A DNA stretch of 64,000 nucleotides, taken from contig NC_049982.1 in NCBI RefSeq assembly GCF_000003815.2, positions 4,452,942-4,516,941 of the forward strand. The letters run 5' to 3'. Position 1 is the stretch's first letter; every line of letters begins with the position of its first letter. The stretch is from Branchiostoma floridae (Eukaryota > Chordata > Leptocardii > Amphioxiformes > Branchiostomatidae). Both the position numbers and the translations under genes were made by a program. The notes under the pieces are model-generated. The model made no database searches. It was not told the origin of the DNA and worked only from the letters and a program-made list of their open reading frames with translations. Positions 1 through 63,103 of this stretch are shown in pieces.

Positions 1-1618
1 ATTATTCAAACTCATATCAAAAGGCATTCCGGTAGATTTTTGATATGCTAAAAAGTTATATAGTCAATCCGCAGCGAGTGTGAAAACAAATAAAGGTTTA
101 AGTGAAAATTTCCCTGTCAAAATAGGAGTGCGGCAAGGTTGTGTTCTAAGTCCCTCACTATTTAACCTATATATCAGTGACTTAGCAGACGAACTGAATA
201 CAGGAGATTTTGATGCGCCCTTGCTAAATACATCTGAAGTATCAAGTTTATTTTATGCCGACGACCTTGTCCTACTATCAACTAGCCAAAATGGTCTTCA
301 AAATGCAATTGATAAACTAGGTCTCTATTGCAACAAATGGAAATTATCAGTTAACATAAATAAGACAAAAATAATCGTATTTAACAAAAAGGGTCATATG
401 TTCTCAAATCTCAAATTTCATATACTCAACGAAGACATAGAGATAGTTTCTTCATATTGCTATTTAGGAGTGGTGCTTACAACAGGTTGCAACTTCACAA
501 CAGCATTAAAAACACTACAAAGGAAGGCGCTAAGAGCTTTGTTCAGTATTAAAACAACACTAGGTGAAACCAATCCTTCAATTTCAGTATATTGTAAATT
601 ATTTGATGCCTGCGTTGTCCCAATATTGACTTATGGTGCAGAGGTATGGGGCAAAATCGGATTAAATGATAAGTCACCCATTGAACAAGTTCATCTGAAG
701 TTTTGCAAGTCGTTATTAGGCGTAAGAAAAAACTCAAGTAATCTTGCAACAAGGGCAGAACTAGGCAGGTATCCTCTGTGGATCGAAGTATATACTAGAT
801 TGTATTCATACTACAAAAGATTAGTTAAAGAAGTGCCAAGAAATAGTCTACAATTTGAAGCTTTTCTTGTACAGCAGGACTTACACAGTCGCAGCATACC
901 ATGCTGGTTTTCCAATGTTAGTAAAATCCTGGAGGAGTCTGGTTTTGCCTATCTTTTGATTAACAGTGATCGCAACACATCTTTCGCTCAGTCCGAAGTA
1001 AACCAAAGACTGAAAGACAACTTTGTTCAAAATTTTTACTCCGAAATGAATTCTCCTGGCATGAAGGAAAACCAAGGTAATAAGTTAAGAACCTACAGAA
1101 AATTCAAGCTTACTTATGAAAGAGAAAAGTACCTAGAGATAACAAATTTTAGTTATCGCCGAGCCATGACTAAATTAAGGATCAGCGATCACCCACTGCA
1201 AATTGAAGCTGGCAGATACACCCGAACTCCTCCTGACGATAGAATATGCATGTTTTGTAATAAGAATGTCAGATGTATAGAAAATGAAATGCACTTTGTA
1301 CTAGAGTGTTCTCTGTACAATGATATGCGTAATAGCCTTGTTAATGTTAAACGTGTTAAAGAGAAATATACAAACATAACAAAGGTAGACATGTTTAAAT
1401 ATCTGATGTCATCAACTAACTATGACATATTGGAAGAACTGTGTAAGTTCGTTTACTCTTGTTTTAAGAGGAGGGACGAAGCTTGTAGAAAATAGTTATT
1501 ATTAGGATATAACATTGTTTATTTGTTGTCATTAACTTTATATCAAACTTAATGCATTTAGCCCCATTGGGGCATGAACATGCAATAAACATCATTGTCA
1601 TTGTCATTGTCATTATAT
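1..1618 (+). mobile_element. Non-LTR (LINE-type) retrotransposon, 3' part, decayed
   Basis: The element enters from outside the window, carries a reverse transcriptase reading frame up to the stop at 1493-1495, then a short 3' UTR and ends at about 1592-1617 in a CATTGT-type short tandem tail, which is how several LINE clades terminate instead of poly(A). The 5' part is outside the window, so length and insertion-site duplication cannot be judged. The clade was not identified; features fit an I/Jockey/CR1-like group. A second, more decayed fragment with a similar C-terminal region lies at 12045-12360. Confidence 0.85.
2..1495 (+). pseudogene. Reverse transcriptase C-terminal half of a LINE ORF2
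   Basis: The translated frame shows reverse transcriptase palm motifs in the usual order: a GVRQGCVLSPSLFNLYI block (RT motif 4 region), the catalytic FYADDLVLLS box, a KLSVNINKTK block and the YLGV block. A C-terminal CX2C...HFVLEC cysteine/histidine motif typical of LINE ORF2 tails follows around 1245-1300. The frame continues upstream to base 2 but contains an in-frame TGA at 41-43, so it looks inactive although the rest (80-1495) is open. The product would copy element RNA into DNA at a nicked chromosomal site. Antisense reading frames over the same stretch are shadows. Confidence 0.85.
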
Positions 1619-12661: not shown

Positions 12662-15600
12662 TCACGTGGGTCGGCTTGTTTGTGTAACCTCTAGATCTCG
12701 AGCGACAACTCTGTCTCCGAATGACATGAAAACACTTCTCGGTTTAACCCCAATGGTGGGGTTGTGGACTGTTTTGTGCTGTGAAATCTGCGAGTGAGGA
12801 AAGGCTCCTCTCTTTGACATAACTGCCATTTGCATGTTTGTTGGTTTGTTCACATGAACGGTACCCTGCAGGTTTGTGTCCTGGGTGGTACCAAAGTCTC
12901 CAAAGAACATGATGGGGTTGCTTGGCATTTTGGATCTCTCCACATCCTTTCTAACAGGAGAAGAACCAGGTATTTTACTCTCTGCTGAAGGTTGTCTTGA
13001 CATGAACAAAGGATAGTAATTTGCAGGAGAGTGGCTGTCCAGTGCACTGCTGCTATCACTTGTGTGCACATCTGAGGTTTCCATGTTCCTCTTTGATCTC
13101 TTTTTACCCTGAAACGTCTCTTCAGACCATTTTCTCTTCCTCCTGCCCCCTTCACTATCACCACAGTCTGTGTCAGAGTCGATTGTTGACCTTACCTCTG
13201 ACCTTTCACCTTCAGAGCAATCTGGATCCTCCTCCATCCAACCTGATGTGCTCACAATGGGATCCTCGTCCAGATCTTCCATGGCTGGGATTCCTCCCAG
13301 TTCCATCTCAAGCTCATTCAGAAGAAACTGGTTCAAATCCTCTTCTCTGGCTTTTATTCCCTTTGGGTTGCTGTCAAATGGATATACATCTGCATCTAGT
13401 ACTTTCTTCTGCACATCATGTGTCCATGGCAACTGACTAAAGCACGGGAACTCCTGTACCTCCTCTTTTACCTTGACCTTGGTACAGCTTGATGAAACAT
13501 TATTATCATCTGAAGAAGTATCTTGCATAGAGTTTGACTCAAATGTCTTGCTGAGAGGCTTACAAGCTTCCTCACGTGTTGGAACTTTCTGCTTCTCTTT
13601 GTTACAGCTGGCATTTTGTAGAGGAGTACTTTGGCTGCTGTCTGCTGATGTATACACTTCATTTTGCTTGTAGGTTGCACCACCATGTAAACTCTTTTCC
13701 CCATGGATGCCATCATTGCTATTGATGCTAACAGTTTTCTGTATGACATCGTTAGATCTAGAGGCCGGTGCATCTGTTTCCTCTCCGTGGGAATTTCTCA
13801 CCATTGTTTCCGAGTTCTGGAGTGTGGCACCATTTTTCGCCATTGTTCCTAAGTCCTGTAGTATTCTTGCAACTATTCCCAAGTTCTGGGGTATGGTACA
13901 TTTTTCTGTTGGCATTTGTGAATTCTGGGGTATGGTACACTTTTCTTGCATTGTTCCTGAATTCTGGACTGTGGTACCATTACCTGTACCAGTACCATTT
14001 CCTGCAACTGTTCCCAACTTCTGGACTATGGTACCATTTCCTGCTTGTGCTCCAGAATTCTGGACTATGGCACCATTTCCTGCTTGTGCTCCAGAATTCT
14101 GGACTATGGTACCATTTCCTGCTTGTGTTCCTGAATTCTGGATAACGGCACCATTTCCTACTTGTGCTCCTGAATTCTGGACTATAATACCATTTCCTGT
14201 ACCAGTGCCATTTCCTGCATCTATTCCCAAGTTCTGGACTATGGTACCATTTCCTGCTTGTGCTCCTGAATTATGGATTATGCCACCATTTCCTGTACCA
14301 GTACCATGGCCATTTCCTGCACCTATTCCCAAGTTCTGGGGTATGGTACCATTTCCTGCTAGTGTTCCTGAGTTCTGGACTATGGTACCATTTCCAGCTT
14401 GTGCTCCAGTATTCTGGACTATGGTACCATTTCCTGCTTGTGCTCCTGAATTCTGGACTTTGGTACCATTTCCTGTCAGTGTTCCTGAATTCTGGACCAT
14501 GGTACCATTTCCTGCTTGTGCTCTTGAATTCTGGACCATGGTACCATTTCCTGCTTGTGCTCCAGAATTCTGGACTATGGTACCATTTCCAACTTGTGCT
14601 CCTGAATTCTGGATTATGGTACCATTTCCTGCCACTGCTCCAGAATTCTGCACTATGGTACCATTTCCTGCTTGTGTTCCTGAATTCTGGACTATGGTGC
14701 CATTTCCTGCTTGTGTTCCTGAATTCAGGACTATGGTACCATTTCTGGCTTGTGCTCCTGAATTCTGGACTATGGTACCATTTCCTGCCAGTGTTCCTGA
14801 ATTCTTGACTATAGTACCATCACCTGTACCTGTACCAGCACCATTTCCTGCTACTGTTCCCAAGTTTTGGACTACGGCACCATTTCCTGCTTGTGCTCCT
14901 GAATTCTGGACTATAATACCATTTGCTGTACCAGTACAATTTCCTGCAACTGTTCCTAAGTTCTGGACTATGGCACCATTTCTTGCCAGTGTTCCTGAAT
15001 TCTGGACTATGGTACCATTTCCTGCCAGTGTTCCTGAATTCTGGACTATGGTACATGTACCATTATCTGCTGTTGTTCCTGTGTTCTGGAGTAACTTTAT
15101 ACAAGCCTGCTTGACCTCTTTGAAGTTGAAGTACCTGCCATTGGCAGCATGCATGATGTTCGCCGCACTTTGTTTAGTAACCCGAATACTGCCAGTGTAC
15201 AGGTAATCCAAGAGCTGGGCAAATGCAGAGGCCTTGAGATTCTTGTCTCCGTCACTCAGTCTTACACTTACAGCAACAACAAGGCCTTTTCTGTTTAGTA
15301 CATCGAACAAAGACTGGAAGTAACTACTGAATGCTGCCAGAACCACCCTGAAGAAATAAACAGAGAAAAAAATCAAAAAAGAAACCTGCATTATAGTGCA
15401 AATACAAATCAAATAGGAAGCAATGACACCAATACTTTGCCATGCCAAACAATTAACTGTGTTGTTAATCACCACAAATAGAGGAGAGCTTAGCTTTTGT
15501 TTTATTTCAAAAGTTCATTGCAACCACACCTAGCCCATGTAACCAATGGCTTCATGAAATTAGACAGGCCTGGTCGTATGTACTGGTATTTCAATAAAAA

Positions 15601-15821
15601 CCAGGGCTCTAGCCAGCGTCCGTTTTTCCGTCAATTGACGGAAATTTGCTACGTATGACAGTTGTTCCTCNNNNNNNNNNNNNNNNNNNNNNNNNNNNNN
15701 NNNNNNNNNNNNNNNNNNNNNNNNNNNNNNNNNNNNNNNNNNNNNNNNNNNNNNNNNNNNNNNNNNNNNNCTCCCTCTGTCCAAACGTCAGGGTGATACC
15801 ACCCTCCTGGTTCCCTGTCAT
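12662..15821 (-). CDS. BTB-domain protein with about 30 copies of a 13-residue repeat (N-terminus incomplete)
   Basis: The main coding exon runs from 15347 to the stop at 12664-12662. It starts after a consensus acceptor (TTTATTTCTTCAG) inside a BTB/POZ fold: RVVLAAFSSYFQSLF, then a block ending FAQLLDYLYTGSIRV and NIMHAANGRYFNFKEVKQAC, matching the second half of BTB domains. About 30 tandem units follow, consensus TIVQNSGAQAGNG, some joined by GTGTGNG linkers. Then comes an acidic/serine-rich region with two basic clusters (RRKRKW, KKRSKR; probable nuclear localisation) and twin FFGDFG/SFGD motifs near the end. No zinc finger is visible. An ATG at 15821-15819 opening MTGNQEGGITLTFGQRE into the gap 15671-15770 is the likely start, so the first BTB half is probably hidden in the gap. 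BTB proteins usually dimerise and act as repressors or Cullin-3 adaptors; which applies here is unknown. Confidence 0.75.
13790..15090 (-). repeat. Coding 39-bp minisatellite within the BTB-repeat gene
   Basis: Units of 39 bp encode 13 residues (TIVQNSG + three variable + AGNG). Extra 15-24-bp insertions encode GTGTGNG linkers at about five places. The units differ by scattered substitutions, and the C-terminal ones (TIPQNLG, RILQDLG, ATLQNSE) are most diverged. Because 39 is a multiple of three and the unit has no stop in other frames, long artefactual frames appear on both strands. Confidence 0.9.
15671..15770. other. Assembly gap in the BTB-repeat gene
   Basis: One hundred N. On the minus strand it separates a probable start exon (15821-15771) from the acceptor at 15347, and probably hides the first half of the BTB domain. 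The sequence after it (CAGGGCTCTAGCCAGCGTCC near 15602) looks like the end of a repeat. Confidence 0.9.
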
Positions 15822-15829
15822 CGCAGCAG

Positions 15830-16740
15830 CTACTATCATTTGTAAAATAGAAATAGAAAAGTTCAATGCCAATGGCCTCCTCTGAAATACATTTGTACTA
15901 CATTGTAGCCACTGTTTCTACTGCAAAGGACATCTAGGCCCGCTCGAAATCTAGTAGTTTGATTTACTCAAAGGAAGCCAGTGTGATACAACTTCAAGGC
16001 CTGTGTGATACAGAAAGTTATCACACCGTCCGGAACACCTGTATCAAACGTTATCACAGTCCAGGTATGACATAAACAGTTTTATAGTCGATTCAGGTTG
16101 CAACTGCACGACCTTTCATCGGTCACTCACGAAAGCTAGTTTTAAGACCGTTTGCAAAATCTATCCAGATGTTTGAAGCCTGAGTAACTTTGCATTGTGT
16201 ACCTGGATGTCTAATAGCTGCAACACTGCAAGGGAAAACATATTTTAATTGTAATACATAGTGTTGCTTTTAGAGGCTTTAGAGGCTTTATTCGTCCATT
16301 AGCAGAGATACAAACAATATATAATGCTAGTCTTTCTGGACATAAAATACACAAATGACAACGTTACACATACAGATACATACAATTATCTACAGTGTAA
16401 TTCAGTCAGAACAATTATTACAATTGTTTACAAATGAAAGTCGTTCCATGTGGATATGGCTCTTTCTGCAGAAAAACAACATTATGTATTAATGTTACAA
16501 TTGAAATACTTTTTCCTTGCAGCGTTGCCCAGCTAGATGTCTAATAAAACATTTATCGATATGTTTAACATTTATAGTCGTTTTTTAATTAAATATTTAT
16601 AGATCACAGTCTAATAAAACATTTAACGATGCGTTACCAGAAAATTTAGTTTGGAGTCTATAGCTCTACATCATGCACAAATAGAAGTAGATTGAAGTAG
16701 AAGTAGAAGTAGAAGTAGAAGACAAATTGACTGACTTACC
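15830..16740. other. Intron or 5' region of the BTB-repeat gene, no gene recognised
   Basis: AT-rich, with two TCTAATAAAACATTTA blocks near 16540 and 16610 forming a short direct repeat and a GAAGTA microsatellite at 16684-16722. On the minus strand a consensus donor (GTAAGTCAG) at 16741-16733 marks the 3' end of a probable 5' exon. Confidence 0.4.
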
Positions 16741-18502: not shown

Positions 18503-18787
18503 AAAGTTAGCCGGCAAAATGCTACAGTAAGCGATTGCGATATGATATCGGATAATCCCTATGTTATGAGTAACTGTTGCTTTCGGCCTCTGGTGTTTTG
18601 TCTGTCTAACGTTATTTGGCTTATTTCTGCTATTTCCAGTGACAGGTGAGGCTAGTCAGATGAGACCTTGCTCCGTTACTCTTTACTATAGGAGTAGAAA
18701 AGACACCATAAACCCCTTCGTTGACTTGACTTTCTTCTTCCCATTCGGACTGTTGTCCAGATCTAGATATCCAGCAGACTTTCCAAG

Positions 18788-20741
18788 ATGGCTGCCACAA
18801 AGGAAACGACCTTCAAGTTCCCCAACATGGCGGCCAGCTTCGTGAAGCACCTGAACGACATGCGTCAGCGCGGGCAGCTCTGCGACCTGACGGTGGTCGT
18901 CATGGGGATGCAGTTCCCGTGCCACCGCGCCGTCCTGGCGGCCTGCAGCTCGTATTTCCGCTCAGTCTTCACTAGCGGTGGGGAGGTTCCCAACGAGCTC
19001 CACCTTCCCACCATGAAGGTCGACACCTTCTCCAAGATCCTCGACTTCATGTACACTCACAGGTAGGGATACAGTCATACCTGTATTAGCAGCCTCCTTT
19101 GCATTGTGGCCACTTTTTGATGGTCCCTTGGATTTTTCCCATAGACCTAAGCATTAAGAAATAGTCTATAGCAATCGAGGTTTTTTATGAGGCGTAATGA
19201 CACCATATACACCTCGGGCGGGTCATTAAACCTTAATCAATTAATTCCCCAGGCTGACGCTGAATGCCGGTAACACGGGGGACATACTGGTCGCCGCCAC
19301 CATGCTAAACCTAGAAAACGTGGTGGACGTCTGCTCGCAGTACCTCAAACGCAGCATGGCTTCTATGGCCATGGCCATGAACTCCTCAGAGACTCAGACC
19401 ACAGCATCTTCCAGTACGGAGGGGGGTTCACACGACCGGCCGAGACAAGTCGCATCATTCGCGGACAGCCAGGATTACGGTATAGACTACTTTGGGTCTA
19501 CCGCGTCCTTCCAGTCTGGTCGTTCTGTCGGTAGTAGTCGTGTCGAGTCGCCCAGCGCCAACCCCCATTCCACCGGGTCACCGCACAGAAAGGAATCCAC
19601 CCCACAGGTAAAATGAAACAGTCCTTTTCACACCATACTGTGTATAGGGCAAGCCTTGATCCCAAACCTGTTATAGTTGCCCAAGTCTCTTTTGTCGACT
19701 TCTCTCCCCTTTGGATAGAGGTCAAAAGAGCGTTTGCAACTGTAGTAAGTTTGGATACCAGGCTACTAAAAAAAAAATAAGGCGTTGCCCATCTTGTTTT
19801 CTATAGTCCACACAGCTGAACAATTTTTCTTTTAGGGGGGTCTTAGTCTACTAAAACCAAAAAAGAAAAAATAGCAAAGGTCACAATTGTTCTTGAAGCT
19901 TTGCTTTATTGTATATGTCTTGTGTACTTTAAGTTTAAAAGAAATGAAATGATTGGAATTTAAAAAAAGAAGTTCTTCCCTCTGCAGTGGGACACACCAG
20001 TCATGAAGGTGGAGCCTGATCAGTTGGAGCCTTCTGAGGACAGCAGCACATCTTCAACTGCTGGGGGCGAGTTGAGGTCGACACCCATGCAGGTACAGGG
20101 CAGATACACTGATGTCAGAGAGAGGGCTGTAGACACCGCTGGGGATGGACTGCAGTTACAGATAGGAGGTAAGTGTCTACTGAATGATACATAATTTGTA
20201 CAGGGTCAATGTACCAGGGAAGTTGCTCTTGTCCATATAAATTACTAGTACCATGAAAAGTGGACAATGGCTGCTAGAACTTCTACCTTTCCCAATATGT
20301 TTTTCTTTCCCAGAGCCTCTCTGAAAAGCATTGCTTAGTCACTGAGAAAGTTATGCTGGTGAAGGAAAATGGAAATAAGTAATTAACTAATAAACTGTCC
20401 AGTAGGAATTGTTACCTCAGGGCGGTGAAGTTCACCACCAAGATTGAAAAACTACAATCTATGGTCTTTTGATATACAGCTGCAACTTTATCTATGTCAC
20501 GTTATGTTTATTGTAAGAACTAAGTCCTTAAGTTTCCCTGTCTATCCCCCCAGGTGTGACATCCTGGTCCACAGATGGGAACATGCTACAGAGAGACGGC
20601 AGTGCCACGCTGTCAGCCGCCCCAACACAGGACCCCTACAGCCCATCCATGCAGGTATGGAGCTATGCAGACATTTTACTGTTGATCACTATATAGTCAG
20701 AAGTGTGGCCACCTTTAACACACACACGCCACACACACACA

Positions 20742-20805: not shown

Positions 20806-23597
20806 CACCAACGAGTACAGCCCAACCCTGCATATATGGATGTTACTATTGGTATCGTTACATATATGTAACACTACGCCTGTCTAGTGTACGACACCAC
20901 CTTCACAAAGTGTACTACGCCTGTCGTTTCACCAAGAAGTCCAGTACTTTAACAGGCTTTGTTTTTGTTATTCTTTACATCACATTCAGGTCTCCGGCAC
21001 AGCAAAGACTACAGATGACCTCGGAAAAGTACTACGCCTGTCCAGTGTGCGACAGTACTTTTATCTGGAGTCCAGTACTTTAACACTAAACATCTGTACA
21101 ACACTCTCAGGTACCGGGCACAGCAAAGCATACAAACAGCCTCAGGAAGGTGTACTATGCTTGTCCTTTTCACCAAAAAGTCCAGTATTCAAACAGGCTT
21201 TTTTTTTTCAAAAATATTCTGTACATCACTCTCAGGTTCCTGGCACAGCAAAGCGTACAGACGACCTCGGGAAGGTGTACTACGCCTGTCCGGTGTGCGA
21301 CAGTACCTTTACCTGGAAGTCCAGTACTTTAACAGGCTTATGTTTTGTTATCCTTTGCATCACATTCAGGTTCCCGGCACAGCAAAGCGTACAGATGACG
21401 TAGGGAAATTGTACTTACTATGCTTGTCTGCTGTGAGACAGTACCTTTACCTGGAAATCCAGTGCTTAAACAGGCTTTTTAAAATATTATTCTGTACATC
21501 ACATTCAGGTCCCTGGCACAGCAAAGCGTACAGATGATCTGGGGAAGGTGTACTACGCCTGTCCGGTGTGTGACAGTACTTTCACATGGAAATCCAGTCT
21601 GCAGCGCCACATGCACAACCACTCCATGTGGAGACGCCACGTCTGCCAGGTCAGAAACATAGGAAACTAGAGTTCCACGAACACATACCTTTGCCAAATA
21701 AATTAGGTTTGTTATGAAGAATGATGTCTGTAGACAAATGCGTTACTCATTTCATTATCTTTATAATTATATGCTTGGAGTTGGTTTATAAAATTTCGGC
21801 ATTGATTATGCAAATTAGATCCCAAGTTACAATCAATTGATATCAAATTGTATCAAACATTACGTAAGCTATCAGCATACCAAAAATCATGGTGATCCTT
21901 TGATCCATTCTTGACTTATTCTCTTTCAAAGTCTTTAAATTCACCTCTTACTCTCTTCCCTCTTTCTCAGTTACCTGTGACAACTTTGAAAGTACTATAA
22001 TGAATGCATTGGATTTGTGAACTTTTCCTAACCAATTATGCAAATTAGCTGTTAATTTGCATAATGAGTATTACATTATATAAGTCTTCACTTAGGCTAT
22101 TTACATGCCAAAAATTATGACGATCCATCAACACGTTCATATTTTCTCATTGATTATGCAAATGAGATCGTCATTTGCATAATTGATATCTACTGACATT
22201 TCTCTCTTTCCCAGCTACATATGTGACAAGTTTGAAAGTCCTATCATAGAATGCAGTAGTTTTATAAACTTTCCTTATTAATTATGCAAATTAGTGGTTG
22301 ATTTGCATAATTAGTGTCTCATTATGTAAGTCAACACTCATTCTATCTACATACCAAAAATCATGAAGATCTGTCAACACGTTGTAGAGTTATTACCGTC
22401 CAAAGTTTGAAAGGAAACCGGCGACTGCAGTTCCAAAAAAGCTGCTAGGGGGCCCAAACTCACAGCACTTAATCTCTACCCCGAGGGCTATCAACCCTTA
22501 AAAAATCATGACCTCAGCATGTCCAGATCACGAGATATAAAAAATTGAGTATCCGCTGCAGTACCTTAGCAAGCCGCTAGGGGGCCCGTTATCGAACTTG
22601 ACCTTCGTTTTCCTGACCCCTACCCACCAACCAAATATCAACAGGATCCATCCAAGGCTTCTCGAGTTATGCTGTTGACACACAGACACACACACACACA
22701 GACACACAAACACGCCCAAAACATAACCTTAGCCATTCTGGCAAAGGTAATCAAGCTTCCTGATTGGCTAGGAGGAAGAATATCACATGACATTGTTTCC
22801 TTATTATATTTTGGTATTCTATCCAGTTATAGTGATTTGGTGGGGTTTTAAAATGCTCAAAGTGTTGCTCTCCAAAAACAAGGTCGCCTAAGATTTTCTG
22901 GATGTAATAGATGACACAGTTTTTGTCATACGTTTCCTAAGACAAAGCAGACAGTGGTGGCAGTTTTACGGCGAATTTAAAACCACCGCGAACATTTTTC
23001 CATGGCAGTAAGAGACTGCAATGCATGGTGCTACCGCAAACTTAAAACCAGCACAAAAAGTCCTTTTCCCCCAAAGGCATTTACAGTACTTCAGCCAAGT
23101 TATTAGATTTGAAATGTCTTCATTTTCTTCTCTGTTTCTCCACCCAGGTTTGCGGGAAGTCGTTTGCGCGGATGGACGTGCTGAAGGACCACATGCTGCT
23201 CCACCTGGCGGAGAAGCCCCACAAGTGCGACATCTGCGGCCGCAAGTTCACCCACAAGAAGAACCTGAAGATGCACGTCATGCGCCACATGGGCGGCTCC
23301 CCCATGACCTGCAAGATCTGCCACTACCGCTACGCCACCGTGGCCGGCCTGCGCAACCACATGAAGATCAAACACGACGCCGAGCTCGTGGAAGCCCAGG
23401 GTCCGGACGGGGACGGAACACCACAGTGTGCAGACATGGCGTCACCCTCGGAGCTGTCGTCCATTAACGTGGATCAGGGCACCCCCATGGAAGAGAGTGG
23501 TAACAGCCCAGGGGATGGGGTACAGCACGAGCTCTCATCTGTAGGCATGGACCAGAACACCCCTGTGGACGACAGTGGGAATGGCCCACAAGAGTAG
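18788..23597 (+). CDS. ZBTB-type transcription factor: BTB domain plus four C2H2 zinc fingers
   Basis: Six coding exons: 18788-19062, 19253-19607, 19988-20168, 20554-20654, 21509-21649 and 23148-23597 (1503 bp, 500 aa, frame consistent). Exon 1 holds the BTB core (FVKHLNDMRQRGQLCDLTVV, then CHRAVLAACSSYFRSVF); exon 2 completes it (LTLNAGNTGDILVAATML) and leads into a Ser/Thr-rich linker. The last two exons carry four C2H2 fingers starting YACPVCDSTF, HVCQVCGKSF, HKCDICGRKF and MTCKICHYRY, each CX2C-X12-HX3-4H; the fifth junction falls inside finger 2. The C-terminus has two imperfect repeats (ELSSINVDQGTPMEESGN, ELSSVGMDQNTPVDDSGN). The start has good context (CAAGATGG). BTB mediates dimerisation and corepressor contact, the fingers bind DNA; it should be nuclear. 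I cannot assign a vertebrate orthologue. A non-coding acceptor precedes at 18639. Confidence 0.88.
20715..20812. repeat. (CA)n microsatellite
   Basis: About 40 CA units with small interruptions (AAGCACAC, ACGCACAC) in the intron after the fourth coding exon of the ZBTB gene. Confidence 0.95.
20870..21485 (+). pseudogene. Decayed tandem copies of the first zinc-finger exon of the ZBTB gene
   Basis: The intron before the functional exon 21509-21649 holds at least four copies of that exon's acceptor and first half (AGGT.CC.GGCACAGCAAAG, YYACPVCDSTF). They lie near 20989-21080, 21110-21200, 21236-21340 and 21369-21475, and a further remnant near 20885-20960. Each ends in a shared AAGTCCAGTACTTTAACAGG tail instead of the histidine half of the finger. 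Some have frameshifts or lost cysteines, whereas 21236-21340 still reads well. The period is about 110-140 bp. They are best seen as duplicated, truncated exon remnants. Confidence 0.8.
21790..22400. repeat. Tandem repeat with paired octamer palindromes
   Basis: Three units of about 118-128 bp each contain ATGCAAAT followed 9-10 bp later by its reverse complement ATTTGCAT: 22038-22045/22055-22062, 22156-22163/22173-22180 and 22284-22291/22301-22308. A single ATGCAAAT also lies at 21808-21815. Between them a second conserved block reads ACATACCAAAAATCATG.(A/T)GATC. The octamer is the classical POU/Oct site. The repeat sits in the last intron of the ZBTB gene; a similar pair is at 59383-59390/59400-59407. 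Confidence 0.75.
22560..22740. repeat. Dispersed repeat with ACAGACACAC tail, copy 1
   Basis: Shares TTATCGAACTTGACCTTCGT, TTTCCTGA, AACAGGATCCAT, CTTCTCGAGTTAT and a CAGACACACA-rich end with 58200-58345. Two separated copies with the same simple-repeat tail indicate a dispersed mobile repeat, possibly SINE- or LINE-derived. Just upstream GCTAGGGGGCCC occurs twice (22442 and 22570). Confidence 0.6.
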
Positions 23598-28400: not shown

Positions 28401-30821
28401 TACGTTCATGATCATAATTCAGATTTACCAGGAAAAGTCCAGTTTGCACCATCCAACATGGCAAACCATACCTACGGCATAAGTTACGCGAGTACAAACA
28501 CCATGTAAGGCACACTGAAGTCCAGAATCACCCTCATGTATGCTGCAGATGTCGCCTGCGTGCATGCGTGTACATGTGTGGACATGCGTGTACATGTGTG
28601 TACACGTGTGTACATGCGTGTACATGCGTGTACATGCGTGTACATGTGTGTACATGCGTGTACATGTGTTTACATGTGTGTACATGCGTGTACATGTGTG
28701 TACATGCGTGTACATGTGTGTGTACATGTGTGTACATGCGTGTACATGCGTGTACATGTGTGTACATGCGTTTACATGCGTGTACATGTGTGTACATGCG
28801 TGTACATGTGTGTACATGCGTTTACATGCGTTTACATGCTTGTACATGTGTGTACATGTGTGTACATGTACATGTACATGTAGTCAAATCACTTAGCCCC
28901 GTTACGCACAAACACGAAGCCATCTAACGCTACTTGTAACCCTCACTAGAATGCTCAGTGTTAGTACTGTTACCCTCCAGGCAGAGGTTGGTGGGGAAAG
29001 TCTTGACATTTTCCTTATATGCCACATTTTTTGCCAGTTGGTGGGGATAGCTAACAGAAAAAGACGGCATATAACGAAAAGGTCAAGACTTTCTCCACCA
29101 ACTTCTGCTTGGAGAGTAGCGTGTGTCTCCAGAAGACTGTGTACATGTTGCTTGTGTCGGTATCGAAATTCATGACACATATTGCAAGTTGTAATCCTTA
29201 TGTTCTTCTCCAGAAAACTTCCGCGCCCTGTGCACCGGGGAGAAGGGCTTCGGGTACAAGAACTCTTCCTTCCACCGGGTCATCCCTGACTTCATGTGCC
29301 AAGGGGGAGACTTCACCCGAGGGGACGGGACAGGAGGCAAGAGCATCTACGGCAACAAGTTCCCGGATGAGAACTTCCAGCTCAAGCACGAGGGTAAGAT
29401 GCTTGTCTGTCCTGTTCTGTTCAGTTGTAGTCAAGCGAGAAGTAAACGGCAAACCAAACAGCAGAGACTGGGTCAAGTTAAAGTTTATTGCACAGCAATT
29501 GTAACTGGTACAATGGAAACCAATGCGTTCTATAAGACCAAGGAGGTTTAAAAGTTTTTACCCCCTTTGATAAGACAACTGGCTAGTTTCCAGGTAAACA
29601 ATATTTAAATACAATACAATCTCTACAACAAATGGAAACAAAACGGAGATTTACTTCCGGACGTTTCGAGTGACATTCATCACACTTCTTCACTGTCACT
29701 ATAACGAACCGCCATAAGAATTCCATACAAGTCCATCGAAGTAGGAAAAAATCGGTTGAACATATCAAAGTCACTAACTCATTAGGATCGTATACAAGAG
29801 ATGTACCAAGACATTATCAGTAATCCTGAGGTATATACACTCCAGATATTTAGGTGTTCCAGACAATGTTGAGAAGGTCTCTGCAACAATGGTTTTTGAG
29901 AGTTGATGTTATTTGTTCTATGGTACATTGTTTATATTCCATGGTTTCATGAATAAACAAAGGTTCAAACAAACAGACCAGTCTTTAGCTGTCTGTTCTT
30001 CTGTATTTCCGCAGGTGAGGGTATCCTGTCCATGGCCAACGCAGGCCCGAACACCAACGGTTCACAATTCTTTCTGTGCACTGTTAAGACAGCTTGGTGA
30101 GTTATCGTTACACCGTTTTGTTTGCCGCCATTGCCTAAAATGGCTATAGAACTATCTTTACCTTTGCCCTTTCTTACTTGCGTGGAAATAGGAACAGTTT
30201 CACTAGTATCACGTGGTATTACGTGGTATTTCTACCAGACTCCGGCCTGGCCGAATAGTAATAGGAGACTTTGGCCAAGTTAGTGGGAGTGAACTGGCCT
30301 GCCGGATAGACTGCAAAAGAGTAATTGAAATCCCACGGCTACTTATATGTGCCTTTTTTTGCAAATTCTTATTTTCTTCATCCAGCTGACACGTCTGTTT
30401 GGAGACTAAAGGTGGTATCTCACTGCACTTGTGTCACGCTTGCGTCACTGCGGGGTTCACATAATACTCAACGAATTTCAGACATAAGAACGAATTTTCT
30501 TACTTTTTGTGTATTTTGTCATCTTCTAAGTCATACTTTTTCATATTATACAATATCTAAATTATAAAAAAAATGGAGAAAATGACAGAACAGTGACGCA
30601 ATGAACGAACCCCGAAGTGACACAAGCTTGACACAAGTGGAGTGAGATACAACCTTTAGTATCACGTACCTCTGTGTTTCTCCAGGCTGGACGGCAAGCA
30701 CGTGGTGTTTGGGAAGGTCGTGGAAGGCATGGACGTGGTGAAGAAGGTCGAGACCTACGGCAGCAGTCCGTCAGGCAAGACTTCCAAGAAAATCGTCATC
30801 GCGGATTCCGGGCAGCTGTGA
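25491..30821 (+). CDS. Cyclophilin A-type peptidyl-prolyl cis-trans isomerase, copy 1 (165 aa)
   Basis: Exons 25491-25559, 27682-27712, 29214-29393, 30015-30096 and 30686-30821 (498 bp with stop), GT-AG borders, phases consistent. The product starts [14 protein letters not shown] and has the full cyclophilin domain: [30 protein letters not shown] (catalytic Arg55, Phe60, Gln63 by human CypA numbering), [17 protein letters not shown] (Ala101, Gln111, Phe113), then a Trp completed across a junction, LDGKHVVFG (His126) and a C-terminus IVIADSGQL. The length of 165 aa equals cytosolic CypA, with no signal peptide or organelle tail, so it should be a cytosolic folding enzyme binding Xaa-Pro bonds and cyclosporin. 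All key residues are present. The second exon is only 31 bp. Confidence 0.93.
26129..26366. mobile_element. MITE in cyclophilin copy 1 intron 1
   Basis: Terminal inverted repeats CCCCTTTCCACTAG(G)ACGGCG and CGCCGTCTAGTGGAAAGGGG enclose about 200 bp. The interior (CTCAACGAATT, TTTGTGT.TTTTGT..TCTTCT) matches the interior of the element at 30405-30660 although the ends differ, so the two belong to one superfamily. Confidence 0.7.
27855..28060 (+). mobile_element. LINE 3' end with (GATACA)n tail
   Basis: The translated stretch GVEWNLL-type followed by [19 protein letters not shown] is a typical ORF2 C-terminus. A 3' UTR GCTGGTGTGTTACGCCGAAC GGCGGTTATACCGGCTATAT and a GATACA tail follow. The same 3' end occurs at 49265-49475 and, inverted, at 49150-49215. 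It lies in intron 2 of cyclophilin copy 1. Confidence 0.65.
28072..28303. mobile_element. MITE of the TACCCC-ended family, copy 2
   Basis: Starts TACCCCTGTCACATTTGGCG and ends TGTGACAGGGGTA, followed by TTA. The interior includes TTTATTGCACAACAATG and GGGACGGTTTTCAGGTG, shared in inverse orientation with 34942-35165. It inserted right at the tail of the LINE fragment 27855-28060. Confidence 0.75.
28555..28882. repeat. 10-bp minisatellite, strictly alternating pyrimidine-purine
   Basis: About 30 units of TACATGYGTG in intron 2 of cyclophilin copy 1. Almost every base alternates pyrimidine and purine over some 320 bp, which is the signature of DNA able to adopt the Z form. Reading frames here ([10 protein letters not shown]-type) are repeat artefacts. 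Confidence 0.9.
28971..29118. mobile_element. Foldback element in cyclophilin copy 1 intron 2
   Basis: CAGGCAGAGGTTGGTGGGGA and AAGTCTTGAC are repeated inverted as GTCAAGACTTTCTCCACCAA and CTTCTGCTTGGAGAG. GCATATAA and its partner lie further in. About 148 bp, probably a MITE. Confidence 0.65.
30405..30660. mobile_element. MITE in cyclophilin copy 1 intron 4
   Basis: Terminal inverted repeats ACTAAAGGTGGTATCTCACT and AGTGAGATACAACCTTTAGT, with inner arms TTGTGTCACGCTTG/CAAGCTTGACACAA-like. The interior resembles that of 26129-26366. Confidence 0.7.
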
Positions 30822-33704: not shown

Positions 33705-35369
33705 GCCATTACATCATGATTTTTGGTGGCAACACATAACGTTGCTCACATTATTCCATTATACACGTACAATGTCATGTACTGAGTCAGACTATAGCTT
33801 TCCATGTTTATGGTACCAACATTTCATGACGTGTGTAAATTTAGATTGAGTAAAAACAATTCCATATTTAAACATCCAACATGCGTGCATACCTGCGTCA
33901 AGGTCACGTGAGTGTAAACACCATATAAGGTACGTTTAACCATCCAGCATGGCGTACAGTAAAATGCCATGATAACGTGTGTGCAAACATGCATGTAAGG
34001 CAGACTGAAATCCAGAATGTCCACGCCTCATCTCTGCTGCAAATATCGCCTGCGTGCCTGCAGTTAGCCAGACGACGGAATTAACTAGCGTAGAGATATC
34101 GATGCGTAAAGCTTAGGGCACAGCCCGCCGCACGTGCAAATACTTGCTGTCTACTTGCCAAAACGTGGGCAATCTTTTGGGATCCGTAAGTGGTAAGTAC
34201 CGCCTCCGTACGAACTCCGTGGCCTCCCCCAAAAACGTACGGCACAAATTGCACGTACAGCGGGTTGTGCCCTTAGCTTTACAAGTTGTAATCCTCTTAA
34301 TCCATTGCCATGTACGTCTCCAGAGAACTTCCGAGCCCTGTGTACCGGGGAGAAGGGTTTTGGGTACAAGGGCTCTACCTTCCACCGGGTCATCATTGAT
34401 TTCATGTGCCAGGGGGGAGACTTCACCAACCATAACGGAACCGGAGGCAAGAGCATCTACGGCAACAAGTTCCCAGATGAGAACTTCCAACTCAAGCACA
34501 CAGGTGACACGCTGTTCTTGTCTGTTCACATTCGTCATGAGCCGTCGCACAGTCTTGATGTCGTAAAAGATTCAGGCAGGCAGTGACGGAACCAAAAGCC
34601 GCCAACATCTAAGGCAGCCTTTTTGAACATTAACAAGACAGCTGGATTTTGCGCGACTATCTCAAGTTCTGTTCTATTCTGTATTTTTGCAGGCCCGGGT
34701 ATCCTGTCCATGGCCAACGCAGGCCCGAACACCAACGGTTCACAGTTCTTTCTGTGCACTGTAAAGACTTCTTGGTGAGTGGCATTGTTTTGATAAATGT
34801 TGCGCCATCATGTATTGAACATTGTAATTATCGATGTTAGGACCAGGCTGATTTGCCATAGCCTACCGTGGACCCAGTATTTGGAACAGTCTACCACCAG
34901 ACATACACATGTACGCACAGCCCCAACTCTGGCTTCCTTTATACCCCTGTTATATTACCCACGATCTTCGGGTGTATCGATGGAAGATCGGCCAGATTTA
35001 AGATCGACAGAGGGTTGCGCGCATTTTTCACCTGAAAACCGTCCCTGTCACATATAAGTCATACCTTGTACAATTGTTGTGCAATAAAGTTATCATTATA
35101 AGCGAGGCTCGGGCGATTGCCGCAGAATCGTCGTCCGATCGATTTTCGCTACATGTGAGGGGGTATTAAGAGACTCTTAAAGTAACAGAAACGACCAAAA
35201 TGAACGGACATAATGATGGTGTTTGTGTTTCTCCAGGCTGGACGGCAAGCACGTGGTGTTCGGGAGCGTCGTGGAGGGCATGGACGTGGTGAAGAAGGTC
35301 GAGTCGTACGGCAGCGAGGCAGGCAAGACTTCCAAGAAGATCGTCATCGCCGATTGCGGGCAGCTGTGA
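32358..35369 (+). CDS. Cyclophilin A-type peptidyl-prolyl cis-trans isomerase, copy 2 (164 aa)
   Basis: Exons 32358-32426, 33539-33569, 34324-34503, 34693-34774 and 35237-35369; exon sizes match copy 1 except the last, which is 3 bp shorter (495 bp with stop). The product starts [14 protein letters not shown] and keeps [32 protein letters not shown], Trp, LDGKHVVFG and ends IVIADCGQL, so the catalytic Arg, Phe, Gln, Trp and His are intact. Differences lie mainly in surface segments (TNHNGTGG versus [16 protein letters not shown] versus TYGSSPSGK). Same orientation and structure as copy 1, about 6.9 kb downstream: a tandem duplicate, predicted active and cytosolic. The CACGTG E-box is kept upstream (32260-32265) but no TATA-like box. 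Confidence 0.93.
33616..33708. repeat. (AT)n tract with GCCATAT palindromes
   Basis: About 90 bp of AT dinucleotides bounded and interrupted by GCCATATAT/ATATGGCATAT blocks, giving an extended self-complementary tract in intron 2 of cyclophilin copy 2. Confidence 0.9.
34108..34280. mobile_element. MITE with AAAGCTTAGGGCACA ends, copy 1
   Basis: Ends AAAGCTTAGGGCACA...CACGTGCAA and TTGCACGTAC...TGTGCCCTTAGCTTT are inverted repeats. The interior includes TTTTGGGATCCGTAAGTGGT. A longer relative is at 38186-38511. It sits just upstream of exon 3 of cyclophilin copy 2. Confidence 0.7.
34942..35165. mobile_element. MITE of the TACCCC-ended family, copy 3
   Basis: Starts TACCCCTGTTATATTACCC, ends CATGTGAGGGGGTA, with TTA on both sides (34939-34941 and 35166-35168). 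It is inverted relative to copy 2 at 28072-28303 and shares its interior. It lies in the last intron of cyclophilin copy 2. Confidence 0.8.
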
Positions 35370-37590: not shown

Positions 37591-43656
<6,066 letters not shown>

Positions 43657-45160: not shown

Positions 45161-48100
45161 CTACAGCTCGTACTTTTTGGACGACGCTATCATTTCAGGA
45201 ATGACGTCATTCCACAGCGCCACCCTGTCCGGGTGCAGCCCTACGTCAGCAGATGACGTCAGCCCCAGGTTCATGTAGGCGGGGCTGTCCGGTGTGTACC
45301 GGGGCCACTCTGGTACCGTGGGGCTGTCTGCCGGGCCGCCGGTACGGTCAGACGGGTTCCTGGGGGGGGGGGGGATTTAGATTTTACTGAGCAGTAGTTG
45401 TGAAAAATACTTCTATAATTCATGTGATTAAGACATATTGGATAAGCAGCAACCAGCTGTATAGGTACATCAGGTCAATGCAAGATCCTATTGAATAACA
45501 AGATTCTTTGGTCACAGCCAAGCGTTCTCTTCAACCGACCTTTCGGTGACCGTCTGTCACCTTCCTCGAGGCAATTCTGACTGGTTCACATTGTACTGCA
45601 GCACAGGTGTTGCTGCTCACAGATTCAATGTGAACCAGTCAGAATTGCACTGAGGAAGGTGACAGACGGTGATCGAAATGTCGGTTGAATAAAAGACATT
45701 TATTACGTCTGGGCTTTACAACCATCTCTCAAAAGTGACGGGGAACGCCATAGACTTTCTGCAACTTATGATCTCGTGTTTTATCTGCATAAGTTGACGT
45801 CAGAGAAGATTGCTTATTCCTTGACAATGACTGGAGTTGGGCTGTGGGAAATTTGGGTAAGTCCAATTTCGTGTTGGAAATTACGGTTCAACTTTGATCC
45901 AAAACCAGGTGTCATATACAAGTATGAGGTCAATGTGCAATATTCTATTAACGGGCAAAGTCACATTATGTTCACATAAATCGATACAAGAAACAAAATG
46001 GTAAACTTCATTGATAAGGTAAACAGTATAGTGTATACGGCACGTGCCTACCGTAGATGTTGTAGTAGTAGCATTAATGCGGTTCTTCTTTGTTATGAGT
46101 TCCATGTGAATCGGTCTATACAGATATGCTGTCAGGGCATGACAAAAGTAAGTTGAAAGTGTTGTGGATTCTGTCTGAAACGTCTGACCGTTTTTAAAAC
46201 CGTATCCAGTAGCCTGAGTGGTTGCTACTTGGCGGATCTTAATACATGGATGTCTAACCTTCATAGACGTAAATTCAAAGCCTGGCGAACTTACCCGGTT
46301 CGAGCGAAGTTGGCCCAGTACGCCATGATGTCCCCGCTGACCTTCCTGTCTTCTGACGAAAACGGAAGTAGGCCCCCTCCCTCCCCCATCCTGGTACTCA
46401 ACGGTACGTCCAGGAAGGGCCAACCCGTCACCATGAAGACGTCATCACTGTGGTCGGCCCCCATCCAGCCTGGTCGGACGGCAGAGGCGAACGCAGGCGG
46501 GTAATGGTACTCGTACAGGTACGCTTTGGAGCCAGACGCTGGAGAGGAACAGAGAGGAGTACTTATGTCATTGAATTAAACACACTGCCAACACGCACGC
46601 ACAGTGACATCAACAACTAAGATAACGATTCTGGAAACTTATCAGTATCTGTGTTGGTAGTAATCATAGTACGTATACAATGCTTTCTTCCAACACAAAG
46701 AAATTTAAGCATTGTACGACGGGGGTGATCACATAAGTCCTCGGACCCAGCCAGAAAAGTCTTATATAAATATGTACCAAAATTCAAATTATTGTGATCA
46801 TTACTTTGCAGGCGACACCCAGTAATGGTAGGTAAGGGAGAAGGAAAGAAACATGGACAATTGACCTGACCTGTGGTGTGCGGGTCAACTTGCGCTGCTG
46901 GAAGTCAGACACCCAATTCTTTTTGCTTGAAATAGAAAGAGAATCATTTTGACAATGTCTTTTGTTAATTTACGGCATGGGGAAGTCGACCCACACACAT
47001 CTGATCACAATTCACACCACTTTTTTCTCGCCACTTACCTTCTGATTTGCAAAAAAACGAATGCCTGTAAAGTAATGACTGCAATGATTTGAAATTTGGC
47101 GGATATTGATAAAAGGCTCCATACTATGAAGTTGTGCCTCAAAATCTGAGTTGTGCTTGTTATTTCTGGGTGGGGCAGAGAACTTATTGATCACCCCTCG
47201 TACAACATTAGATAATTTTAAATTCGGGTTGTTCCAATAAGCTGATTCCAGGTTTGAACTGCACGTGCTCAGAGAGATTCGTTGTTGGTAATATGTCAAA
47301 GTTGAAGGCCATAAACAAAACTGGAAACGTATCAAGCACGGTCTAGACAAGAGAAAATGATATCAAGAGGATCCTCATTTTCATCGGATTCACACAACAC
47401 TGTAAGCTTTTGCAGTATGTTCAATCATTCATGAAAGATAACAAATATTTGAGTAACCAATCTCCCGTCTTACATCCCTGACTTGGAGTACCTGCATGCT
47501 TATAATTCATTTTAAAAAGATCATCGAATTAAACACTTGGCAAAGGTACACATCAACAACTTTAGGCAAGAAGATTTTATCAACGACGACAAGAAGCTTT
47601 TATCAAAATACACGGCCGAGTATTCACAATCTCCAAATGTGAGGGATAAGTGATACCAATCACAGATTTTCTGGCATTCATTTAATTTCTGTACTTGAGC
47701 AGAATCACCAACTGATCAAGGCCTAAGATTTGATTAGTATTCTCTTTGGTATGGAATTAAGTAAAAAGAATATATCATCCCACCTGCGTGTCTATTAGCG
47801 GTGTCCACCGTGGGTGCCACGAACATCCAGTCACCGTAAAAGTTGGAGAACTGCCGCTGTATGGCCATGGGGTCGTCCGGCTTGTCCTGGTCACGGTACA
47901 GCTGCCGAGCGGCGGCCACGATACTGGCCGTGTGGGAACTCTGGCATCGTGAGAGAAAGGAAGAAAAGATAGCAGAGACACATTTTTTAATTGGGCAAAT
48001 GTGTACATTTTCAAATATTGGCAACTTACGTCATTTACTTGCTCATTTCACAGCTGTTACGTGCGATTTACAGTACGGTTGAAAACGATGTATTTTTAAA

Positions 48101-51100
48101 CGGGTGAAAATTGGTGCATGTGTCGATATCATTCATACAATTGCCATGGCCTAACAACGACAAGAAAAGCTAATTGGGTTCTATTACCGGATAAAGTCCT
48201 CCTATGAGCGCCTTGAGGTGGCGGTTGAAAGTGTCCTCTGTCATGCCCTGTCCAAACTTCGGCTCGACCAGAGACGCCAGCAGAGATCCGAACTCGTCGT
48301 TGGTCACTCCAAGAAGATAGTCCACGGGGTGTGCCCGGCCCCGGTCGTACAGATCATCGGGGTGCGCCGGGAGGAAGCTCCCGTCGACTACCGGCCCGAA
48401 ACTGTCCCACATCGACGACTTGATGACGTCCTGCTGAGCACCGACGAGCTCGTCTGCTGGTTTCTGCCGGAGACAGGACACCATGCTCCCCGTGTCCTTA
48501 CCATCACAGCCGACCGCTTCAGCCAACGTCGTGGCAACTCCCAACGGCTTGATAATGGTTCCGAACGAGTTGCAGGTGCCGCTCTGCGAGATGGCCCGCC
48601 GGAAGAGCCCCTTGCAGAGAGGAGAGACCACGTGGTAGCAGACGCTCATGGCACCAGCAGATTCGCCGAAGAGCGTGACTCGGTCAGGATCTCCTCCGAA
48701 GTTCCGGATGTTTTCTTTCACCCACGTCATCGCCTGGATCTGGAAAAAGGAATTGGCGTTATGCGATGGTCGTTGTCTTTGTTTAAGTGGCTTAGCAATA
48801 AGCATCTTTCAAACGTTGCCTACTTTTCTCCTTGCGAGGCTAGTTGGGAGTTAACCGTCAATATAGATGGGATATAGATTTCATTTTGTCACACAAAGCT
48901 GGGCAGTTGTCGATAATTATCCGTTCAACGTTTGTAATACATATTTTGTCATTTTACTCCTTCCTAGCACGTAAAGATTAAGTAAAAATGCATCGACAAA
49001 TACCTTTCCCAGAAATTTTTGATATCTATTTCATCTCACTTCGCCGTCAATAACATAAGCTGAAACCACGTTTTTTTTAATCGAAATGCCATTAAACTTA
49101 GCTTAGTCTGCCAGCAAAATTTGCTTACAGTAATTTAAGTATTTAGTGTATTTCGTCTGTATCTGTATCTATACAGCCGGTATAACCGCCCTTCGGCGTA
49201 ACACACCAGTCTCGACTGATGTTTTGTTATAGCCATATGAAGTTAACAAACCTGATAGCAAATTCTTATTTTGCCAGAACTATTATAGAGTGGAATTTGT
49301 CATCACCAAGCACAGTAGGAGCATTTTGGCTGAATATTTTAGACAACACTTGCAAAAGTTAGGTGTGACGGGTCGTTCAGTGTAATATAACCAGCTGCTG
49401 TTGCGCTGCGTGCCTGCGAAGCTGGTTTGTTACGTCGAAGGGCGGTTATACCGGCTATATAGATACAGATACAAATAAAGAAACAAGCTTAAGCAAAAAA
49501 AGTACGTAGTCCACCTGGTCCAGGAAGCCGAAGTTCCCAGGCGCGTTCTCGTCCCCAGTGCTGAGGAAACCCAGCGCCCCCAGGCGATAGTTGATGGTGA
49601 CGACAACCACGTCCTGATGAGCGGCCATGGCGGCGAAAGGTTGAGGGCGTCCCGTGCCGATTTGGAACGACCCACCGTGGATCCACAGGAGAACCTGGAG
49701 ATGTGAGGTGGAAGTTTGTTATACACCTTTGCAGCAATGGGAGTGAGAGTAATTCCTCTATAGTTAGAGGCAGATGTTAAATCACATTTTTTTAGGTATT
49801 GGCACAATTCCTCCTTTGAGCCAAGATGATGGGTAATTTTTCAGACATTAACACATATACTTACGAAACTAAACTTTTTGGATGTCTCTTTTCCCTTTGG
49901 GCGGGGGAATGTGGACTTACGTTCAAATTGTGTTTTGCTATTCGGTATTGTCTACTTGCCTTGGTATTCTTTATCATCCACTGTTTGACTGTTTTGGTAA
50001 ATATCTTATTTTCCGGGCTGTAGAAGTGGCGGCGAGTAACGCTATATAATTTGTATAACTTGTTTCGTCCGTGTATTTGTGTTTGATGAAAAAAATAAAA
50101 CACACACACACACACGCACGCACTTACTGGCAGTCTCGTGTCATTTGCAACAGTTGGTGTCTCAACGTTCAGCGTGAGGCAATCTTCATCGAAGTCGTGG
50201 TGTTGGAGCTGGAAGGGAAGAATGTACAGCATGCTCGGCCCTTGTGGACAGTAGGGACCAAGTCTGGTGGCGTTTCTCACTCCCTTCCACGGAGCTACAG
50301 GCTGTGGGGTGCGGAACCGCAGGTCTCCGACAGGCGGCGCTGCGTACGGGATGCCCAGGAAGCTGTAGACCGGTTTGTCGGGCAGGTCGTTGGTGTGCTG
50401 CACTGTTCCCCGCACATCGCCGCTCGCCGTGCGCACAACAGGGACGCCATTGCCACTGTCAGCAGCTGCTGGGAATTAGTGTTTACAATTGAACTCGTAC
50501 AGTAACTTGACTGGGGCCGATGTCGTCAAGTATGAACATCATCATCTTTATTTCGCACAAAAACACTTTGAAAAATAATATATTCCCACTCACGTTGCCT
50601 CAGTGGAGAGTTAAGGACTGGGGTGAGAAGACCGAGGCATCGTGGAATCCGAGATTCCATGCTTACCCGTAAAATACTTAGGGGGTGGGTGGGTGGGGGG
50701 GCTAAAAATTTGACTGCACTTCTTTCCCGTGCTCCCCCCCATCTACTAATATCCTCTTCAGCAGAAAAGGTGAAGAATTGCTCCGAAACTTGATATCATG
50801 TGTTGCGCTCTGTTGTTCAGATATAACACAGAAAAGACACCTACACTTGAACAGAACTTTATTGCCCGACAATTGTACATGATATGGCAACTATTATTAC
50901 ACAAAGTACCAAATGACTGACACTCGGTTTTATTCCGACTGCTGTACCACATGAGAAAGAGCCATACACTCTTTGTGTCTGGCGGTAGGCTGTTCCAGAC
51001 ATTGGGCCCATGGTAGGCTATTGATCTTCTGAAGGTCTCTCGCTTAGGCTTTGGGACAACCAGTTGACTACTTGCTTTGGTTGTTCGTGTACTCTGGTCC

Positions 51101-54100
51101 CTGCAGTACACAAACATCTAGCGCATGTAGGGTAGTAGTTGCATATAACTTCGGAGCTTTGGATAATCCACACAGATCGGAGATATCCCTCTGGTGAAAA
51201 ACGGCTACACTAGAAACCTACATTGCCTCTGACCGTGGACTGTAGCTAGACTAGTCTACTCTTGCTAGGCTGTGTCCCTCCCGTCCGGCTCATGATTCAC
51301 TTGTGAATAGAGGGGGAGTTATATCACATGTCATAAACTCACGCGAGTGGAGATCTCGCGAGAGTTCATTCCATTGTGATATCATTGGGAATCATAATAT
51401 ATTCCCACTCACGTTGCCTCAGTGGAGAGTTAAGGACTGGGGTGAGAAGACCTCGGCACCCGCTTCTCCCGAGTGCCATTATTCCCCTAATTTAAGTTCC
51501 TACATTTCCCTTCATTTAATCCTCTCCCAATCCTTATTCTTCTCCATTCCCTTTTCCCAATCCTTATTGTCTTCATTCCCCCAATCCCTTATATTTACTC
51601 CCTCACCTCTGTGCCTTTCCGTACAAAACCCTCTACGTATGCATTAAGCCACCTTGACAACACAGCAGCATCCCCTATGGTCTGCTGCGCATGCTTGTTG
51701 TTATCAACAGGGTGGGTGTAAGACTATCACAGTCACAGTCATCAGTCTTTAGGTGTTCCTCAGGAATGCAGATTGATCCCTGGTTCTCAGCTAAGTTCCT
51801 TGGGCGCCTAAGGTCCGGCTCGAGTGGGACCTGTCCAATCCGAACTCAGTGGAATGGTCGACGACCAGTCCGATTAGATAGAGAACCCTTAGAGATTACC
51901 TGAGACCAACCTCTCCCAGGTTTACAGTAGTTCAACTCATCCTGCGTCGTGTTGGAAATCAAACATTGATTTCTCTGCGTATACAAGAACAATATTCCAG
52001 CTGCAGAGAAAGCTATCACCACAATGCTTGCTCAGTATCTAACCTGTAACTGTCGACCTTTACGCACAGTTCTATGTATTTCAGTCTGGACAGGCCCCAC
52101 TCGCTTCCCGGACCACCAGGCCGAAGCCAGTATGGGTGGCAACAGCTTAAGGGAGCTGAACACGGTCCACGAGTGAGAACTAGGCCAGCTAAAGGTAGCC
52201 AATAAACAGGAACACAGAAAATCCAATGGTAGGAAGGAATGTGACACGAGAAACTCGTCATGATCTTTGTCTTTATTCCAAACTTGCATAACAAGAAACG
52301 CAAACACCGGTTCAGTCAACGGTAAAATCACCATCCAACATTACCGTGCAGACGCTGCGGACCTTATCGAAAATTGCATGTCGTCCAAGGTCACAATCTA
52401 ATTGTGACAAACGAAGTTCCATTGTTCCCATTGTGTCCTCCATTCCTTTGACCTTTACTTCTGACCTGTCCAACAAGGTAGGTCTTCACTGTACTACCGT
52501 ACGGTTTGTTACCTACCATGGATTTGTTCACCAACCATGCAACAAACCAAACAAAATCTGAGGTTGTCCAACAACCTGTCGTCATATCAAATGAAACACC
52601 GACTCAAATCAAACAAAGTTACGATTACCGTCCACCGGCGCCCGTTGTCTTACAGCGAAAATCCACTATACCGTCTGACGCACCCCGCTGTCCAACAACG
52701 AATTCTCTACACGATTGTCCAACAATCTCACCACACCGTCCACCGGTGCCGTTGTTCAACAGCGAGTACAATATACAACCATGTACTGCACCCCACCGTC
52801 CGACGGTGCCGCTGTCCAACAGCAAATACAACATACAGTCATATACTGCACCACTCCCTCCAACGGTGCCGCTGTCCAACCGCAAATACCAGATACAACA
52901 AAGTACTGTACCACACCGTCCAACAGCGAATACAACATACAACCATGTACTTGTACTACACCGCCCAACGGTGCCGCTGTCCAACGGCGTATACAACATA
53001 CAACCATGTATGTACCGTGCCACACCGTCCGGCGGTGCCGCTGTCCAACAGCGAATACAACATACAACCATGTACTGTACTACACCGTCCGACGGAGTCC
53101 GCTGTCCAACAGCGAATACAACATACAACCATGTATGTACTGTACCACACCGTCCTACAGTGCTGCTGTCCGACAGCGAATACAATATACAACCATGTAC
53201 TGTACCACACCGTCCAACGGTGCCGCTGTCCAACAGGAAATACAACATACAGTCATATACTATACCACACCGTCCGGCGGCCACGCTGTCCGACAGCAAA
53301 TGCAATATACAACAAAGTACTGTACCACACCGTTCAACGGTGCCCGCTGTCTGACAGCAAATACAATATGCAACAATTATTGTACCAAACCGTCCGACGG
53401 TGCCGCTGTCCAACAGCAAATACAACATACACGATGTATGTACTGTACCACACCGTCCAACGGTGCCCGCTGTCCGACAGCAAATACAATATGCAACAAT
53501 TACTGTACCAAACCGTCCGACGGTGCCGCTGTCCAACAGCAAATACAACATACAGGATGTATGTACTGTACCACACCGTCCAACGGTGCCCGCTGTCCGA
53601 CAGCAAATACAATATGCAACAATTACTGTACCAAACCGTCCGACGGTGCCGCTGTCCAACAGCAAATACAATATACACAAATTACTATACCACACCGTCC
53701 GACGGTGCCGCTGTCCGACAGCCAATACAATATACAACAATTGCTGTACCAAACCGTTCGACGGTGCCGCTGTCCGACAGCAAATACAATAAACACAAAT
53801 TACTGTACCACACCGTCCGACGGTGCTGCTGTCCGACAGCGAATACAATATACAACAATTACTTTATTACGTCATCCGACGGTGCCGTTGTCCGACAGCG
53901 AATTCTAACCAATTAAAACATTAAATCGATCGACGATCCTCAGTCATACAGAGTCAAAACCTAAAGTTTCCCCACAAAAGTTACGTCCTCGGTACTAAGA
54001 AATCAGACCACTGCGCCCCGCTGATCAGCCTGACAGGAGCTGGGGAGGAGAGAATACCGGGTTAGTGCAAAACTGCGACCCACTCCGAAACTACGTCTCG

Positions 54101-62879: not shown

Positions 62880-63001
62880 GTAAACAACACTAAACGATTC
62901 AAAGTTTCATTCCAAAATGTGCCAAAATGATTTAGCTAGCTATTTGACTGTATTTTGGACGAAATTCTTTTAATGATTCTCAAAATTTTCTTACCACCAT
63001 G

Positions 63002-63101: not shown

Positions 63102-63103
63102 AA

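Follow-up and report, generated by a model that had tools for sequence, protein, structure and literature searches.

What does a tandem 13-residue repeat do between the BTB domain and the tail of a predicted amphioxus protein, and how did it come to be there? The locus lies on the minus strand of a 64,000-nucleotide stretch of Branchiostoma floridae DNA (assembly GCF_000003815.2, contig NC_049982.1, positions 4,452,942–4,516,941), referred to here as the window and numbered from its first nucleotide. We consider it rather probable that the locus encodes a probably nuclear BTB protein in which an in-frame exonic minisatellite has lengthened the linker that joins the BTB domain to the tail.

A predicted BTB exon containing a repeat array

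On the minus strand, one frame stays open between 15349 and a stop codon at 12662; with the split first codon completed by the AG of the intron, it encodes 895 residues. Upstream of 15347, a pyrimidine tract followed by AG resembles a splice acceptor, with which the exon would begin at the third base of a codon. From this tract and the open frame, a long coding exon was predicted at 12662–15347, comprising most of a BTB domain, then a 421-residue repeat array, then a 375-residue tail and the stop codon. None of 2000 first-order Markov simulations left the 375 codons of the tail free of stops; the other two sense frames across the tail contain 9 and 31 stops. Together, the open frame, the BTB match and the tail argue that the array stretch is part of a coding exon.

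The BTB/POZ assignment (15083–15349, residues 1–89) was made with Pfam PF00651, of which the C-terminal ~80 positions are covered (profile positions 27–108 of 110, E = 6.2e-11, 42.9 bits against a cut-off of 20.5). When the BTB part alone was compared with PDB sequences, KLHL3 (5.7e-5) and a ZBTB17/NACC1 fusion (1.7e-4) were closest; a ZBTB17/BCL6 fusion and ZBTB5 were also among the nine distinct sequences at E ≤0.1. The first ~26 profile positions probably sit in or beside an assembly gap at 15671–15770, which is entered as 100 N and whose true size may differ. Directly beyond it, a possible first coding exon (15771–15839, minus strand, translated as MIVAAAMTGNQEGGITLTFGQRE) runs into the gap, with ATGs at 15839 and 15821 as candidate starts; this exon is plausible rather than established, because its junction falls inside the 100-N gap.

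The array consists of 30 in-frame units between 15052 and 13790 with the consensus TIVQNSGxxAGNG, of which 29 have a 13-residue core and one, unit 28, has 10 residues. Tandem Repeats Finder gave a 39-base period with a score of 763. Twenty-five regular units, together with five linkers, occupy 13976–15052 and have 29–39 of 39 bases equal to the consensus, whereas units 26–30 (13790–13975) are decayed, with 30, 28, 24, 26 and 24 of 39 bases matching. The linkers, 6 or 8 residues long, stand after units 3, 5, 18, 20 and 25. A linker follows all five regular units that have Leu at position 6 and none of the 20 other regular units (Fisher P = 1.9e-5); over all 30 units the figure is five of seven Leu-6 units, as decayed units 28 and 29 have the Leu and no linker. 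This association suggests that blocks of several units were copied together.

The tail (12662–13789) has a net charge of −14 and contains one VKEE SUMO-type motif, two FGD motifs and, at 13097–13144 on the minus strand, a bipartite cluster resembling a nuclear localization signal, RRKRKWSEETFQGKKR. It lies on the disordered side of the charge–hydropathy line, and neither a PDB sequence match at E ≤10 nor a Pfam family above cut-off was found for it. From these features we infer a nuclear location and partner binding by the tail. Long acidic or basic regions are often found C-terminal of the BTB domain in ZBTB/NACC-type proteins. An earlier sequence-only reading of the locus had described a BTB domain directly followed by about 30 near-identical 13-mers with occasional linkers, and then an acidic tail with nuclear-localization-like clusters and twin FGD motifs. 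The open frame, the Pfam match, the unit spacing and the tail motifs bear this out, with one correction: near-identity holds for 25 units and fails for the five strongly decayed ones.

With regard to partner domains, only three Pfam families reached E ≤10 on the exon, BACK, Kelch and MATH not among them, and matches to zinc-finger or BEN domains were likewise absent from it. In the window, a C2H2-like pattern gave eight minus-strand hits in all and none on that strand below 23,497, although a further downstream exon beyond the window might still carry fingers. The exon product has the BTB domain in common with ZBTB/NACC-type proteins but, unlike these and the BTB–BACK–Kelch types, lacks zinc finger, BEN, BACK and Kelch matches, and a repeat array fills its linker. 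NAC1, for comparison, is presented in the account of PMC7764960 as BTB plus BEN.

Probable origin and growth of the array

A probable founder unit, KLLQNTGTTADNG, was located at 15059–15097 on the minus strand, where it overlaps the last part of the BTB match. It shares 29 of 39 bases with the consensus; the closest ungapped site anywhere else in the window, on either strand, reaches 23 of 39. This divergent 31st copy, which overlaps the last BTB helix, is probably the founder; its position and its score relative to the rest of the window suggest that the array grew out of the end of that helix. A unit of 39 bases corresponds to 13 codons, so that adding or losing one leaves the frame intact, and array length can drift.

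Growth would have proceeded by unequal exchange or slippage, with the middle units homogenized and those at the tail end left to decay. The resulting protein would dimerize through its BTB domain, enter the nucleus by way of the basic cluster and contact partners with its tail; the array would be a spacer of variable length, its precise sequence being of little consequence. The array is unusual in sequence, and its proposed mechanism of growth is ordinary. No Pfam repeat family scored above cut-off for the 13-residue repeat in the exon. A literature search found no text containing TIVQNSG, NSGTQAGNG or IVQNSGAQ, and no paper on this gene was found among the titles returned by searches on amphioxus BTB, BTB or coding minisatellites, and NACC-type BTB proteins.

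Sources outside animals were sought in prokaryotic and viral contig collections, which hold no animal genomes. Of 57 prokaryotic contig stretches matching a sequence pattern, one, from Cytophagales, passed tblastn; by eye it is an amidohydrolase-like enzyme and has no repeat, and was put down to chance. Eight stretches of viral contigs matched a pattern and none passed.

Predicted structure of the array

The alternative that survives best, unlikely as we judge it, is that the array would form a β-solenoid rod of 13-residue coils, with Ile/Val inside and Asn/Gly at the turns, serving as a rigid scaffold or a self-associating surface on the BTB dimer. AlphaFold2 was run on 12 units (five models), with the same DNA translated in another frame as the single control. 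The best model was a β-solenoid with a mean predicted local distance difference test (pLDDT) score of 74.3; the control gave 41.4 and no solenoid. Against this, the other four models scored 56.4, 46.4, 42.1 and 36.3, and the comparison rests on one control frame. AlphaFold2 is also reported in PMC11795689 to build false solenoids from repeats, so that the model is weak evidence. The solenoid fold proposed in the sequence-only reading thus gains the best model and its contrast with the control, and loses ground to the remaining models and to this class of artifact.

Foldseek returned no matches to the model at E ≤0.001, the best being TibA at ~1e-3 (TMq 0.39), and no amino-acid selection was detected (below). 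The predicted fold resembles that of bacterial β-helix autotransporters (antigen 43, TibA), although their sequence identity to the array, whose own fold is a prediction, is 4–8% in the top five VIA rows. The propeptide of lysostaphin contains 13-residue repeats. In the sequence search, the lowest E value (2.1e-4) belonged to a weak match of lysostaphin (6rk4) to residues 227–331, a likeness that most likely reflects periodicity and composition. A more elaborate combination, in which a BTB dimer would bear two 30-coil solenoid rods, grown from its last helix by the minisatellite, of allele-varying length and joined to a nuclear tail, would amount to a new fold extension produced by repeat expansion and is still harder to credit.

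Selection on the repeat and coding status

As its own test, the sequence-only reading had proposed to ask whether synonymous differences among the units are in excess. This test was run on the 25 regular units with a neighbor-joining tree and parsimony, and changes of the same spectrum were dropped on the root; it assumes tree-like descent, an assumption that homogenization breaks. Of 54 inferred changes, 19 were synonymous against 16.6 expected (P = 0.29), so that no synonymous excess between these units was found and constraint on the repeat sequence is left unsupported. The sameness of the units accordingly reflects recent copying more than constraint. The ratio of non-synonymous to synonymous differences (pN/pS) was considered as a further sign of selection and set aside, as the coding frame does not stand out: it gave 0.71 for the 25-unit set against 0.53–0.79 for the other five frames, and 0.86 for 29 units against 0.61–0.74 (the 10-residue unit 28 was left out of both sets, and units 26, 27, 29 and 30 out of the smaller).

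Several observations weigh against the spacer reading. Non-synonymous changes at I2, V3, N5, G7, A10, G11, N12 and G13 numbered 16 against 24.8 simulated (P = 0.012); this set of eight positions was picked after inspecting the units, and synonymous changes are equally scarce there (8 synonymous to 16 non-synonymous, against 11 to 19; Fisher P = 1.0). The absence of stops from the array is not significant alone, 2.06 being expected and the probability of none being 0.135. The composition of the array, 22% Gly, 14% Asn, 12% Thr and 10% Gln with few charges, places it on the folded side of the charge–hydropathy line (hydropathy 0.474, boundary 0.418), and its mean TOP-IDP score is low (0.068). 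Taken with the AlphaFold2 solenoid, this folded-side composition may mean that the array is no limp spacer.

A reading in which the array goes untranslated, being a minisatellite that belongs to a pseudogene, to an intron or to a mis-assembly and is open by chance, would account for units whose pN/pS carries no coding signature. It also draws on the gap that hides the junction of the first exon and on an antisense frame that is likewise open for 510 codons. We nevertheless regard it as doubtful, given the good acceptor at the exon start and a frame that runs unbroken from the BTB domain through all units into the tail. The failure to detect selection goes part of the way toward the refutation that the sequence-only reading had set for itself, but relaxed constraint does not equate to non-coding status, and no simulation left the 375-codon tail open. 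That the units are sticky motifs (weak binding sites or aggregation-prone segments) whose number tunes condensation or partner binding is very improbable: the many near-identical, Gly/Asn/Thr/Gln-rich copies with few charges would suit it, but no partner or motif is known and no Pfam repeat family scored above cut-off.

Returning to the lengthened-linker reading, the exon, if transcribed, would show how minisatellite growth at the border of a folded domain gave rise to a 421-residue protein region whose founder can still be read. As such, the array is well suited to asking if a repeat of this kind gains structure or function or is merely tolerated, and if its length varies among individuals.

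Neighboring loci

A second BTB domain lies on the plus strand at 18767–19066 (E = 2.6e-21), and C2H2 fingers lie at 23046–23597 (E = 1e-12); we infer that the two form one gene. This BTB domain was considered as a recent paralogue of the one above and rejected as a recent duplicate, with 20 of 52 residues identical in the aligned part. Within this BTB/zinc-finger locus, 20980–21622 (plus strand) contains five tandem copies of an intron–exon boundary, each an acceptor with the start of a finger exon; by eye, their acceptor CAGs end at 20989, 21110, 21235, 21369 and 21508, and the last of the five alone runs on into a complete finger, CPVCDSTFTWKSSLQRHMHNH.

Tandem duplications of exon–intron boundaries in amphioxus genes are called "mirages" in PMC3087553. 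As they are characterized there, mirages resemble the BTB array in being a minisatellite within a gene whose edge units escape homogenization. They differ in spanning an exon–intron boundary: the BTB array spans none and is wholly intra-exonic, the exon start at 15347 being 250 bases from the founder-like unit. On that description, the neighboring locus at 20.98–21.6 kb fits mirages better than the BTB array does, and its boundary copies would by themselves make a cephalochordate source likely.

Rfam and tRNA scans of the whole window found nothing. A reverse transcriptase at 44–1495 (plus strand; RVT_1, E = 4.3e-17) appears by eye to resemble a long interspersed nuclear element. Two similar cyclophilin exons lie on the plus strand at 29195–29551 and 34197–34586 (E = 1.6e-13 and 4.2e-13). 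Carboxylesterase-like exons are arranged in inverted orientation at 38808–42963 (plus) and 46291–50475 (minus), of which 48170–48808 matched COesterase (E = 4.3e-53) and the others were recognized by eye only. A 60-base minisatellite of 19.6 copies at 52730–53903 overlaps a plus-strand frame open for 483 codons (52465–53916), with no Pfam match at E ≤0.001. Finally, Thr-rich, mucin-like open stretches interrupted by three N gaps lie at 58408–63816 (plus strand), where 63102–63741 forms a 51-base array.
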